From the NCBI GenBank assembly GCA_017526445.1, contig JAFXRI010000029.1, forward strand, positions 1-32,964: a stretch of DNA of 32,964 bases, written 5' to 3'. Shown here in pieces: positions 24,875 to 31,278 of the stretch. Origin of the DNA: Ruminococcus sp. Lineage in GTDB: Bacteria > Bacillota > Clostridia > Oscillospirales > Ruminococcaceae. The first letter of the stretch is position 1; each line of letters begins with the position of its first letter. The notes beneath the pieces were generated by a model that made no database searches, was not told the DNA's origin, and saw only the letters and a list, made by a program, of their open reading frames with translations. The position numbers and the translations under genes are program-made.

Positions 24875-26749
24875 ATGGCAAAGATTATAGGTATTGACTT
24901 AGGTACAACAAACAGCTGCGTAGCAGTAATGGAGGGCGGCGAAGCCGTCGTTATCCCCAACAGCGAAGGCGCAAGAACTACTCCTTCCGTTGTCGGCGTT
25001 TCCAAAAACGGCGACAGACTGGTAGGCCAGGTTGCCAAGAGACAGGCTGTTACTAACTTTGATAACACAGTTATCTCTATCAAGAGACATATGGGATCGG
25101 ACTATAAGGCTCAGATGGGCGGCAAGAGCTATACTCCCCAGGAGATCAGCGCTATGATCCTCCAGAAGCTCAAGGCCGATGCCGAGGCATATCTCGGCGA
25201 GACCGTGACCGAGGCCGTTATCACCGTTCCTGCATACTTCACCGACGCTCAGCGTCAGGCTACCAAGGACGCCGGACAGATCGCCGGCCTTAACGTAAAG
25301 CGTATCATCAATGAGCCGACAGCCGCGGCCCTTTCTTACGGTATCGATAAGGAAGAGGACCAGAAGGTCATGGTCTATGACCTGGGCGGCGGTACTTTCG
25401 ATGTGTCTATCATCGAAATGGGCGACGGCGTTACCGAGGTCCTCGCAACAGCAGGCAATAACAAGCTGGGCGGCGATGACTTCGACCAGCGCATCATCGA
25501 CTGGATGATCAGAGAGTTCAAGAGCGCCGAGGGCGTTGACCTCTCCGGAGATAAGATGGCTATGCAGAGACTCAAGGAAGCAGCAGAAAAGGCTAAGATC
25601 GAGCTGTCCTCGACTCCTTCCTCTACTATCTCCCTGCCCTTCATCACAGCCGATGCTACAGGCCCCAAGCACCTGGAGATGACTCTTACTCAGGCTAAGT
25701 TCAACGAAATGACCGCTGATCTTGTCGAGATGACTATGGGCCCTGTAAGACAGGCACTCTCCGATTCCGGACTTACAGCAAATGACCTGCAGAAAGTCCT
25801 TATGGTCGGCGGTTCTTCGAGAATACCCGCTGTTCAGGAGGCTGTAAAGAAGTTCATCGGCAAGGAGCCCTTCAAGGGCATCAACCCCGATGAGTGCGTA
25901 GCTCTCGGTGCCGCATATCAGGGCGGCGTGCTCGGCGGCGATGTCAAGGAAGGCCTGCTGCTGCTGGACGTTACTCCTCTGTCCCTCTCTATCGAGACCG
26001 CAGGCGGCGTAGCTACCAAGATGATCGAGAGAAATACTACCATCCCTACAAAGAAGACTCAGGTGTTCTCCACCTATGCGGATAATCAGACTGCCGTTGA
26101 TATCAACGTCCTCCAGGGTGAGCGTGAGTTCGCTAAGGATAATAAGCAGCTGGGTATGTTCCGTCTCGACGGTATCGCCCCCGCTCCGAGAGGCATCCCT
26201 CAGATCGAGGTAACATTCGATATCGACGCCAACGGTATCGTTCACGTTTCCGCTAAGGATCTGGGTACCGGCAAGGAGCAGAATATCACTATCACTTCTT
26301 CCACCAATATGTCCAAGGAGGATATAGATAAGGCCGTCAAGGAGGCAGAGGCTTTCGCTGCCGAGGACGCCAAGAAGAAGGAAGAAGTCGATGAGAGAAA
26401 TAAAGCCGATCAGATGTGCTTCCAGGTCGAGAAGGCTATGAACGAGTTCGGCGATAAGGTAACAGCCGATGAGAAGAGCACCGTTCAGGCTAAGATCGAT
26501 GCACTGAAGGAAGCTCTCAAGGGTACCGATATCGAGGCCGTAAAGGCTAAGAATAAGGAGCTGGAGGATGCATTCCAGCCTGTAGCCACAAGGATCTATC
26601 AGGCAGCTGCACAGGCACAGCAGGCAGCCGGCGGCGCCCAGGGCTTTGATCCCAACAATATGGGCGGCATGAACGGCGGCGCTGCACAGGGCGGCTCCGG
26701 CAACGGCGGTGACGATGTCATAGATGCTGAGTTCACCGACGCAGAATGA
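24875..26749 (+). CDS. dnaK: Chaperone DnaK (Hsp70)
   Basis: DnaK is the ATP-driven Hsp70 chaperone. The 624-residue protein starts [19 protein letters not shown], has the phosphate loop [13 protein letters not shown] and [11 protein letters not shown] in the nucleotide domain, and the substrate domain from about residue 360 ([17 protein letters not shown]). The tail is Gly/Asn/Gln-rich and ends [10 protein letters not shown]. Length is usual for Gram-positive DnaK. AAAGGAAG lies upstream of the ATG. It follows grpE after 99 bases and precedes dnaJ. Confidence 0.98.
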
Positions 26750-26779
26750 TCTGTGAAACGATAAGATGAATGACCGCAG

Positions 26780-26820
26780 ACCGCAGGGCAGAAATGCTCT
26801 GCGGTTTAGTGGGATTTTTT
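26780..26820 (+). terminator. Weak terminator behind dnaK
   Basis: ACCGCAGGGCA pairs with TGCTCTGCGGT around GAAA. The T-tract is interrupted (TTTAGTGGGATTTTTT), so partial read-through into dnaJ is plausible, which would make dnaJ less abundant than dnaK. Confidence 0.65.
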
Positions 26821-26825
26821 AACAA

Positions 26826-26898
26826 TGTACAGTTGATAGTGGATAGTTGATAATGAGCCGCGTTCCTTCGTTATCAGCTCTCTGCCATCAACTGCATA
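26826..26898 (+). repeat. Imperfect palindromic repeat before dnaJ
   Basis: The left arm (26831-26853, ending GATAGTTGATAAT) and right arm (26871-26895) are imperfect inverted copies, giving a long hairpin. Its left end, ACAATGTACAGTT, resembles ACAATGCACAGTT at the element before pflB, so it may be a small dispersed element. Confidence 0.5.
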
Positions 26899-26916
26899 TC
26901 AGTGAGGAGAATGCTT

Positions 26917-28059
26917 ATGGCAGACAAGAGAGATTATTATGAGGTGCTGGGAGTGCAGAAGTCAGCCTCGGACGACGAGATCAAAAAGTCGTTCAGAAAG
27001 CTTGCAAGACAGTATCACCCCGACCTGCATCCGGATGATAAGGATGCGGAAGCCAAATTCAAGGAGATAAATGAGGCGTATGAGGTCCTCTCGGATAAGG
27101 ATAAGCGTGCGAAGTATGACCAGTTCGGCCACGCAGCATTCGATCCGTCTTACGGCGGAGGCGGCGCAGGAGCAGGCGGCTTCGGCGGCTTTGCTGATAT
27201 GGGCGATATCTTTGACTCCATATTCGGCGGCTTCGGCGGCTTTGGAGGACGTTCCTCCAACCCCAATGCCCCCAGACGCGGCGCAGATATCGAGACCTCT
27301 GTTACAATAGATTTTATGGAGGCCTGCTCAGGCAAGAAAATGAACGTAAGGCTCAACCGCAGTGAACAGTGCCCCGATTGCCGCGGCACAGGCGCTGCTG
27401 CCGGAACTCAGCCCAAGACCTGCCCCGACTGTAACGGTACAGGCACAAGGCGCGTTACTCAGCGAACACCCTTTGGCAATATCTCCCAGCAGACTACCTG
27501 CTCGCGCTGCGGAGGCAAGGGCAAGATCATCGACTCTCCCTGCCGTACCTGCTCGGGCAGCGGTACCGTCAGAAAGACTCAGGAGCGCGAGGTGGAGATC
27601 CCCGCGGGCGTGGATGACGGACAGACTCTCAGGATACAGGGCGGCGGCCACGCCGGCAAGAACGGCGGCCCCAGCGGCGACCTCCATATCCGTGTGGATG
27701 TGCGCCCCGATCCTATCTTCGAGCGTGACGGCTACGATGTGTGGACTGAGGTCCCCCTTACTTATACCCAGGCAGCTTTGGGCGCCGAGATCATCGTTCC
27801 CACCGTGGACGGCAAGGTCAAGTATATCGTCCCCGAGGGTACTCAGGCAGGCACCGTGTTCAGGCTCCGCGGCAAGGGCATAAAGCGCCTCTACCGCTCC
27901 GACAGGGGAGACCATTACGTCAAGGTCAGCGTCGAGATACCTAAAAACCTCTCCAAGGATCAGAAGCAGAAGCTGAAAGCCTTTGAGGATTCGCTGGGCG
28001 AGAAGAACTATCAGAAGCGTCAGAGCTTCTTTGATAAGCTTAAAGATAAATTCAAGTAA
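26917..28059 (+). CDS. dnaJ: Chaperone DnaJ (Hsp40)
   Basis: DnaJ stimulates DnaK ATPase activity. The 380-residue protein has the J domain with the HPD triad (QYHPDLHP), a Gly/Phe-rich linker ([11 protein letters not shown]), four zinc-binding CxxCxGxG repeats ([32 protein letters not shown]) and the C-terminal substrate domain. GAGGAG lies seven bases before the ATG at 26917; in-frame starts at 26902 and 26911 lie within or next to the ribosome site and are less likely. It follows the dnaK terminator. Confidence 0.97.
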
Positions 28060-28622: not shown

Positions 28623-28651
28623 TTGACACAGGCGGGTTTATGTGTTATTAT
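28623..28651 (+). promoter_or_regulatory. Promoter of the pyruvate formate-lyase operon
   Basis: TTGACA (28623-28628) and TATTAT (28646-28651) are 17 bases apart; a TATAAT at 28649 would give a 20-base spacer. The 5' leader is about 70 bases long. No Rex or FNR-type site stands out by eye. Confidence 0.8.
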
Positions 28652-28730: not shown

Positions 28731-30800
28731 ATGTTCGGTGAGTTCATGCCCGAGTGGGAAGGCTTTGAAGGAGGAAGATGGAGCAAGTCGGCAGTAGATG
28801 TGCGCGACTTCATCCAGAAAAACTATACTCCCTATTACGGAGATGAGTGCTTCCTTACTCCTCCTACCGCAGCGACCAAAAAGCTTTGGGAGCAGGTCAT
28901 GGGCCTTGCAAAACAGGAGCGTGAGGCCGGCGGAGTCCTGGATATGGATACCAAGATCGTTTCTACGATCACATCGCATAAGGCAGGGTATCTTAATAAG
29001 GACCTGGAAAAGATCGTCGGGTTACAAACGGATAAACCCTTCAAGCGTGCGCTGCAGCCCTTCGGCGGCATAAGGATGGCTCAGAATGCCTGCACTCAGA
29101 ACGGCTATGAGGTGGATCCCGAGATCGTCAAGATCTTCACCGAATACAGGAAGACACATAATCAGGGCGTGTTCGATGCCTATACTCCCGAGATGAGAAT
29201 GGCAAGGAAGTCGGCTATAATCACCGGCCTGCCCGATGCCTACGGCCGCGGCCGTATCATCGGCGACTACAGACGTGTGGCACTCTACGGCGTTGACCTC
29301 CTGATCGAGGATAAGCAGAACCAGCTCGCTACCGCCCTTGTCAGAATGACTTCAAAAACTATCCAGCTGCGTGAGGAGCTTGCCGAGCAGGTAAGGGCTC
29401 TCGGACAGCTCAAGGAACTTGGTGCTATCTACGGGCTGGATATATCCCGCCCCGCAAAGACCGCGCAGGAGGCTGTGCAGTGGCTCTATTTCGGCTATCT
29501 GGCCGCAGTCAAGGAGCAGAACGGCGCCGCAATGTCGCTGGGACGCACATCTACTTTCCTGGATATATATATAGAGCGCGACCTGCAGAACGGCATCATC
29601 ACCGAGCAGGAAGCTCAGGAGCTCATAGATCACTTTATTATGAAGCTCAGGCTCGTTAAGTTCGCCCGCACTCCCGAGTATAACTCACTGTTCTCCGGAG
29701 ATCCTACCTGGGTGACCGAGTCAATCGGCGGCGTCGGCATCGACGGTACACCGCTGGTAACAAAGAACTCTTTCAGATATCTGCATACCCTCGATAACCT
29801 CGGCACTGCACCGGAGCCTAATATGACCGTGCTGTGGAGCACCAAGCTCCCGCAGGAGTTCAAGCGCTTCTGTGCGAAAATGTCTATCAAGACTTCGTCG
29901 ATACAGTACGAGAACGACGACCTTATGCGTGCTACTCACGGCGACGATTACGCTATCGCCTGCTGCGTGTCCTCAATGCGCATCGGCAAGGAGATGCAGT
30001 TCTTCGGCGCAAGAGCCAACCTCGCCAAGTGCCTGCTCTATGCCATAAACGGCGGCGTTGACGAAAGACTGAAGGTCCAGGTCGGACCTAAGTACCGCCC
30101 CGTGGAAGGGGATTACCTCGACTACGACGATGTTATGCAGAAGTACGACGATATGATGGAGTGGCTGGCAGGGCTCTATGTCAATACCCTCAATATCATA
30201 CACTATATGCACGATAAGTATTGCTATGAAAAGATTCAGATGGCGCTCCACGACAGAGATGTCAAGCGCTACTTCGCAACAGGTATCGCCGGCCTTTCCG
30301 TAGTCGCCGATTCCCTCTCAGCGATAAAGTATGCCAAAGTAAAATGCATCAGAGACGAGAACGGCATAGTAGTCGATTATGACGTAGAGGGCGATTTCCC
30401 CAAGTACGGCAATAACGACGACCGCGTTGACAGCATCGCCGTGGACCTTGTCACCCGCTTTATGAATAAGATCAGAAAGCACCATACCTACCGTATGAGC
30501 GTGCCTACAATGTCGATACTGACCATAACTTCCAATGTGGTCTATGGAAAGAAGACAGGCAATACCCCCGACGGCAGAAAGCAGGGCGTGCCCCTCGCTC
30601 CCGGTGCTAATCCTATGCACGGCCGCGACTCCCACGGCGCAGCCGCATCACTCTCATCAGTTGCAAAACTGCCTTGGAGAAGTGCCCAGGACGGTATATC
30701 CAATACCTTCTCCATAATCCCCGACGCGCTTGGCAAGGACCAGCAGGTCTTTGTCGGAGATATAGATATCGAAAGCATTGCAAAGGAGCTGAATGAGTAA
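28731..30800 (+). CDS. pflB: Pyruvate formate-lyase core subunit lacking its glycyl-radical domain
   Basis: Pyruvate formate-lyase (PFL) makes acetyl-CoA and formate from pyruvate in fermentation, using a glycyl radical. This 689-residue protein has the PFL body ([20 protein letters not shown] start, active-site Cys411-Cys412 in [20 protein letters not shown], and the [20 protein letters not shown] stretch) but ends at [13 protein letters not shown], before the last about 65 residues of a normal PFL. There is no RVSGYA motif, and no frame continues it. E. coli PFL has 760 residues, with the radical glycine at 734. The missing domain is encoded as a separate protein at 31027. GAAAGGATG precedes the ATG at 28731. 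The protein should not be active alone. Confidence 0.95.
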
Positions 30801-31024
30801 TGGGAATGCTGGTAACACGCGACGACGAGGAAGGCGAGCTGGACGAGCTCGTGAGTATGATCGACAGACTTTTTGAAGAGGGCGACGGACACCTGACCAT
30901 AGATGTGGACGAGACCGCATCCGGTATCAGAGTCAACCGTTACGGCACATCCGACTGCGGTAAGCTCGGTGCCTGTGCTCAGCCAACAGAAGATGCTGAT
31001 GACAGTCAGAACAGGGAGGAATGA
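30800..31024 (+). CDS. Small subunit resembling half of the glycyl-radical domain, glycine lost
   Basis: A 74-residue acidic protein. Its residues 14-36 align without gaps with residues 11-33 of the next protein: nine identities (Asp, Leu, Val, Asp, Glu, Gly, His, Leu, Val) and many conservative changes, around the HLNVNV strand motif (here HLTIDV). After that it diverges and has no RVSGYA glycine loop; two cysteines (DCGKLGAC) and an acidic tail follow. It begins at TAATG, so its ATG overlaps the pflB stop by one base, with AAAGGAG inside the end of pflB. Its stop overlaps the start region of the next gene. It looks like a duplicated, degenerated or repurposed domain. Role not known. Confidence 0.75.
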
Positions 31025-31026
31025 TC

Positions 31027-31278
31027 ATGTCGAATAATATACCCAATGACAAGCAGGTGGATAACCTTGTGGATCTGCTGGACGGATATGTGGAAAAAGG
31101 CGGACACCACCTTAATGTGAATGTGTTTACAAGAGAGACTCTGCTGGACGCTCAGGCCCACCCCGAGAAGTATCCTCAGCTTACAGTAAGAGTATCCGGC
31201 TATGCCGTGAATTTCGTAAAGCTCACTAAGGAACAGCAGGACGACGTCATCTCCAGAACGTTCCACGAACAGATCTGA
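31027..31278 (+). CDS. Separate glycyl-radical domain of pyruvate formate-lyase
   Basis: An 83-residue protein equal to the C-terminal domain of PFL. It contains [36 protein letters not shown] and [18 protein letters not shown]. Gly58, in RVSGYA, is the expected radical-bearing residue, and 25 residues follow it, close to the 26 after Gly734 in E. coli PFL. Unlike E. coli YfiD/GrcA, it has no long N-terminal extra domain, and the partner lacks its own glycine domain. AGGGAGGA lies six bases before the ATG at 31027; an ATG at 31021 overlaps that box and the previous stop. The domain is inferred to dock onto the core. Confidence 0.93.

Follow-up and report, generated by a model that had tools for sequence, protein, structure and literature searches.

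A pyruvate formate-lyase divided between separate genes in Ruminococcus and its relatives, with a probable third, cysteine-bearing element

Introduction

Anaerobes convert pyruvate to acetyl-CoA and formate to a large extent by pyruvate formate-lyase (PFL), an enzyme that is vulnerable to cleavage by oxygen at its glycyl radical. The small proteins YfiD/GrcA and Y06I of phage T4 repair the full-length enzyme after it has been cleaved in this way. According to one report, the radical of Escherichia coli PFL is borne by Gly734 (PMC12338860). In another study, a small protein of the YfiD type can render a cut PFL active, the E. coli enzyme cut at residue 695 reaching wild-type activity once activated with YfiD; YfiD binding by this cut enzyme was below detection, however, and its activation was 32-fold lower than that of a form retaining residues 696–733 (PMC8683613). 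A literature search confined largely to open-access papers, with few subscription journals or preprints, yielded no account of a PFL that is split by nature.

Here, we describe a PFL locus of Ruminococcus sp. (contig JAFXRI010000029.1; the window denotes the whole analysed stretch of 32,964 nucleotides) together with its relatives, in which the fermentation enzyme of gut Ruminococcus relatives comes in pieces and the fragile radical part is a small protein of its own.

Organization of the locus

In the window (G000:C56), the gene of the PFL core is followed by a third gene of 74 amino acids and then by the gene of an 83-aa glycyl radical domain (GRD) protein. The features are as follows.

28623..28651, + strand: sigma-70-like promoter (putative), TTGACA-17-TATTAT with TG ahead of the second hexamer, 11 of 12 consensus positions
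28731..30800, + strand: PFL core, 689 aa, without GRD; alternative start at an in-frame GTG, 28704
29961..29966, + strand: codons of the active-site pair Cys411-Cys412 (ACCVSSM, read from the sequence)
30800..31024, + strand: third gene, 74 aa, a degenerate copy of the GRD N-half with a C-terminal Cys motif and without the radical glycine
30956..30976, + strand: Cys53 to Cys59 of the third protein, from conservation across 55 sequences
31027..31278, + strand: separate GRD protein, 83 aa, GrcA3 family; alternative start at an in-frame ATG, 31021
31198..31200, + strand: codon of the radical Gly58 (RVSGYA), corresponding to E. coli Gly734 by alignment

The ATG of the third gene overlaps the stop codon of the core (TAATG). 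The promoter-like site lies 80 bases 5' of the core, and its function is putative, six such sites occurring in the stretch against 3.4 expected from shuffles. The dnaK and dnaJ genes (24875–28059) are located directly 5' of the operon.

The core and the GRD protein are complementary in their coverage of the PFL chain. The core scored 1137.2 bits against TIGR01255 (cut-off 994.2), matching positions 1–667 of 744. In phmmer comparisons with E. coli PFL (1h16) it covered residues 9–680 and the GRD protein residues 681–757, so that the junction lies at 680/681 with zero overlap. The TIGR01255 family has the GRD on the same chain; here, the core ends at E. coli residue 680 and the domain is found on a second protein. 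The CCVS stretch was invariant in all 28 aligned cores that carry a cysteine tail (see below). The GRD protein, with its RVSGYA motif and SRTFHE terminus, scored 168.9 bits against NF038360 (GrcA3; cut-off 158), a model that was also matched by 22 of 22 aligned GRD relatives (E up to 0.001). Since the match of YfiD (6owr) begins only at GRD residue 24, GrcA3 is the full domain and not a repair fragment.

These coordinates and residues agree with the initial annotation, which had described a 689-residue PFL body with Cys411-Cys412 that stops before the GRD, and an 83-residue RVSGYA protein with the standard C-terminus in the same operon. It had also placed a gap of 0.2 kb between the two, and they are indeed separate genes, but the 74-aa gene that occupies the gap had been overlooked.

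Distribution of the split and other PFL genes in the same genomes

Of 16 genomes of the genus searched with PF01228, 15 had the split, and the one without it is only 66% complete. Ruminococcus bicirculans 80/3 also carries the split, on its chromosome II, the sequence of which is complete. Homologous core/domain pairs, for which the initial annotation had proposed a search, do occur in related genomes. The nearest 80 loci comprised 78 split and 2 fused ones (Anoxybacillus), which is not a frequency in nature, these relatives being the best 80 of at least 587 from a core scan of genome contigs and nearest by construction. In an even draw of 299 genomes across the phylum, 89 had a PFL above the cut-off, and two of these 89, the window's included, were split. 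A class sample of 391 genomes held at least 22 with a separate GRD, a lower bound that leans on weak GRD matches. The split was borne by Ruminococcus, Lachnospiraceae, Erysipelotrichaceae, Gastranaerophilales, Atopobiaceae and one Spirochaetales MAG. Both the split and its conservation are read directly from these sequences, and the architecture is widespread and not peculiar to this genome. At one locus (L068), no GRD was present within 2967 bases. The split PFL on a contig labelled Muribaculaceae (L060) is nearly identical in its core branch to that of a Melainabacteria locus (L058), which suggests a mis-binned contig or a recent transfer.

According to the initial annotation, another full-length pflB in the genome would make the pair a relic. 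None was found in the window's own assembly, which is 78% complete: apart from the core, PF02901 matched a single protein there, identified as an HpsG-type sulfopropanediol dehydratase (G000:C41:12154-14457, L120), with an activase-like gene beside it. This HpsG-type enzyme has GVAGYS, while its relatives L004 and L005 show the usual RVAGYS. Fifteen further genomes were reached via named loci, one of them the fused Anoxybacillus and the other 14 split-bearing. Searched whole, 13 of these 14 had no full-length PFL, so the split looks obligatory there, and the split enzyme looks to be the sole PFL in most examined bearers. The earlier view of an obligatory split is supported in part, by these 13 genomes, by a core without a GRD of its own, by the partner gene in the same operon and by the conservation of the pair. 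A strict obligation everywhere is contradicted by two genomes in which a full-length PFL stands alongside the split one, namely Claveliimonas bilis (G696, locus L041) and G559 of the class sample. The window's assembly has one PFLA above the cut-off, on contig C24, and among 75 loci inspected for a PFL activase motif, 50 had it 3' of the GRD.

The third gene and the cysteine tails

Of the 78 split loci, 46 have the third gene, and within the genus it occurs in every one of the 14 split genomes examined (all 15 except G003); in one genome (G455) it lies 3' rather than 5' of the GRD. The N-half of its protein is homologous to the N-half of the GRD (profile-profile probability 95%, E 2.5e-8), aligning to the first 29 conserved GRD columns and resembling residues 678–711 of E. 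coli PFL, and in whole genomes the family profile also picks up GRDs with E down to 3e-6. RVSGYA is absent from the third protein; where the GRD has the radical glycine, it carries C-x(4-8)-C-x2-P (C...AC..P). Among 55 sequences, Cys59 and Pro62 were invariant and Cys53 and Ala58 were conserved in at least 90%, the first Cys being lost in the genus members L007 and L009. Members carry two to four Cys, many of them only two, and the Lachnospiraceae forms have four (GCTDCSRTPLACSVP). The gene is under purifying selection: of 12 pairs compared, 11 gave a dN/dS of about 0.04–0.23 and the last could not be estimated, with dS often exceeding 1. A chance ORF is ruled out by this low dN/dS and by its retention in 46 of 78 loci.

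No curated family model accounts for the third protein. The window's copy (P0003) had no Pfam match, and a Pfam scan of 55 members gave scattered weak matches only (best E 0.011, each in one to four members). A PDB profile search with the family returned meaningless matches only (best E 0.025), NCBIfam gave only GrcA3, below its cut-off, and one query with the L107 protein found no match in phages or plasmids. At L103, the core-GRD gap of 982 bases contains, in addition to the third gene, a stretch with ORFs repeating a peptide like KSIGRQPVNEQAKA, that is, a repeated DNA element inside the operon.

At 30 split loci where no third gene was seen, the C-terminus of the core is extended and contains two or more Cys (e.g., CSNGACGTPTLFEGLDAE). 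The 78 loci divide into 46 with the third gene and no tail Cys, 30 with the Cys tail, none with both, one with neither (L064) and one undecided (L085), where the contig ends 63 bases after the core; at L086 only 231 bases follow the core, and the absence of the third gene there is weak. A similar picture came from the 22 class genomes with a separate GRD: ten had the third gene, nine the Cys tail, three neither (G458, G496 and G559, of which G496 and G559 are long branches), and none was seen with both; in this tally, the core of G506 lies outside the fetched stretch and some genomes are of the same or nearly the same species as those of the 80 loci. The four split systems with neither element show that the split can work without the third element, which is thus not indispensable, or that another element serves there.

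When the motif of the third protein was turned into a model, this reached at least 10 bits in 12 of the 30 Cys tails as against none of 600 shuffled tails and none of 50 tails without a Cys pair (a control in which the window's core counts twice). The other 18 Cys tails are short (e.g., GCCED) and fall below 10 bits. The motif was missing from the linkers of all 42 distinct fused PFL sequences.

Trees were built only from loci with a pattern-matched core, with identical rows dropped and 41 fused rows entered. On a tree of 126 rows, the split rows and one fused row formed a single clade of 86 rows (SH-aLRT 100). Two changes were needed between fused and split and 11 between third gene and Cys tail, and a second tree of 138 rows under another model again required 2 and 11. 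The fused row inside the split clade is L233 (G635), in which the core is joined directly to the GRD; it has neither a Cys tail nor a third gene nearby, and its genome was unmatched by the third-protein profile. It is a re-fusion within the split clade with loss of both elements, although this is one case only. When supported branches alone are counted, the alternation offers five independent pairs (sign test, median p 0.125); it is therefore a strong pattern that is not significant on those branches, and its weight rests on the 11 changes of the best tree.

Alternative explanations

One objection to the split is that a sequencing or assembly error, or recoding of a stop codon, breaks an ordinary PFL. 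Core and GRD do stand in the same frame at a few loci (L055, L061, L076, L080, L083 and others), but an error of the kind that the initial annotation had feared is not borne out: the same split recurs in all but one of the 16 genus genomes and all but two of the 80 loci, and a conserved gene lies between core and GRD. Recoding is ruled out by that intervening gene and by the core stop codons, which are mixed (53 TAA, 17 TGA and 9 TAG; n=79) and so argue against it. In addition, the separate GRD has a ribosome-binding-like site of its own, a 4-mer with an in-frame start preceding it in every one of 76 cases, that of the window among them (such a 4-mer occurs at 11% of single random positions, and several starts could be tried per gene). 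We give this objection next to no credence. It is also very improbable that the GRD protein serves to rescue a full-length PFL as YfiD/GrcA does, with the core a relic or secondary copy. The NCBI name of the family, autonomous glycyl radical cofactor GrcA3, speaks for a spare part, as does the fused PFL in G696 and G559; against it, a fused PFL that could be rescued is missing from 13 of the 14 split-bearing genomes searched, the core passes the PFL cut-off and has the Cys pair, and the GRD protein begins exactly where the core ends.

The third element might bind a metal or an Fe-S cluster and tune radical transfer, like the [4Fe-4S] small subunits of benzylsuccinate synthase (BSS), also a glycyl radical enzyme; its small size, its cysteines and the four Cys of the Lachnospiraceae forms would suit such a role; we nevertheless consider it unlikely, as the homology of the third protein is to the GRD, neither the BSS small subunits nor any meaningful PDB chain matched it, many members have only two Cys, and fused PFLs do without it. 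Another role that we rate as unlikely is that of an inhibitor or decoy, which would compete with the GRD and keep the core off when the radical subunit or reductant is scarce. A GRD-like N-half without the glycine would take the same site, and the gene is translationally coupled to the core (TAATG), but a free inhibitor would hardly alternate with a Cys tail in cis, a pattern that fits a permanent component better.

Proposed mechanism and significance

The locus probably encodes a naturally split PFL, made of a core, a docking radical subunit and a third element, either a separate protein or a Cys tail, that may serve as placeholder or docking element. That the third protein is homologous to the GRD N-half and alternates with the tails is seen in the sequences, while docking, activation and exchange, as well as where the third element sits and how its chemistry works, are inferred. 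The core protein would carry the barrel and the Cys pair, and the GrcA3-type protein the whole GRD. The PFL activase would install the radical, and the GRD would dock into the core to give the active enzyme; with a helix that is absent from YfiD, this GRD should dock unaided better than YfiD does. When oxygen cuts at the glycine, the small part alone would be replaced, an exchange step proposed by analogy with YfiD. The third protein or Cys tail might sit where the first helix and strand of the GRD go, keeping a vacant core prepared to receive the GRD, and its cysteines may form a thiol or metal guard near the mouth of the active site. This placement is proposed because the third protein resembles E. 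coli residues 678–711, which overlap the docking-relevant residues 696–733 of the cut-enzyme study (PMC8683613).

A bolder version, in which a three-part PFL of many gut Firmicutes runs through a cycle of plug, dissociable radical subunit, damage and exchange, is conceivable though doubtful. The Cys-bearing mimic of the N-half would then fill the site, guard the active-site cysteines and hand the core to a fresh radical subunit, and a Cys tail in cis would have replaced the mimic repeatedly. To our knowledge, such a cycle occurs in no described glycyl radical enzyme.

With a radical part that is always a separate 9-kDa protein, the question of repair, so far one of cut E. coli PFL and YfiD, becomes that of a normal enzyme cycle, and the third element offers a testable and so far unnamed partner. 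The case also carries two warnings for annotation: what is labelled an accessory cofactor may in fact be a subunit that the enzyme cannot do without, and an apparently truncated PFL in a genome may be whole.

Comparison with known systems

The enzyme shares with PflB (E. coli 1h16; TIGR01255) a core above the cut-off, the Cys pair, the glycine motif and complementary chain coverage. PflB is one chain, whereas here there are two and a third Cys-bearing element that is absent from the 42 distinct fused sequences.

With YfiD/GrcA and Y06I of phage T4, it has in common that the glycyl radical loop is located on a small protein of its own; in contrast to YfiD/GrcA, the core here is without the domain, and the small protein also has the N-terminal helix of the GRD. 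A full-length PFL in the same genome, as befits a spare part, was lacking in the window's own assembly and in 13 of 14 others and was present in G696 and G559. Among phages, one protein family (PHROG 21327) extends over 760 positions and so over a full-length PFL. Matches to the GRD with up to 79% identity also occur in short, unannotated phage records of faecal origin, which may be bacterial contamination. The name of NF038360, GrcA3, implies an accessory cofactor, while the present data suggest that the protein is the regular radical subunit of a PFL without GRD.

Two PDB chains annotated as formate acetyltransferase are also similar. The first, 38lb_A (739 aa), is a close homologue that runs past ALGK into VMFGECDMCEM, resembling a Cys tail, and has no GRD; the second, 38la_A (687 aa; a natural chain or a construct), ends at LGKED. 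The GRD protein search matched no GRD chain of 38la or 38lb, and no paper on them was found. Judged by their sequences, both look like GRD-less cores, one of them Cys-tailed, so that others would already have such enzymes in hand.

As for small partners, BSS-beta and BSS-gamma are likewise Cys-bearing companions of a glycyl radical enzyme, but they are [4Fe-4S] proteins of HiPIP-like fold beside a full-length subunit (PMC12590467), and they have no sequence match to the third protein, also among PDB sequences. The third element is more novel than the split enzyme itself.
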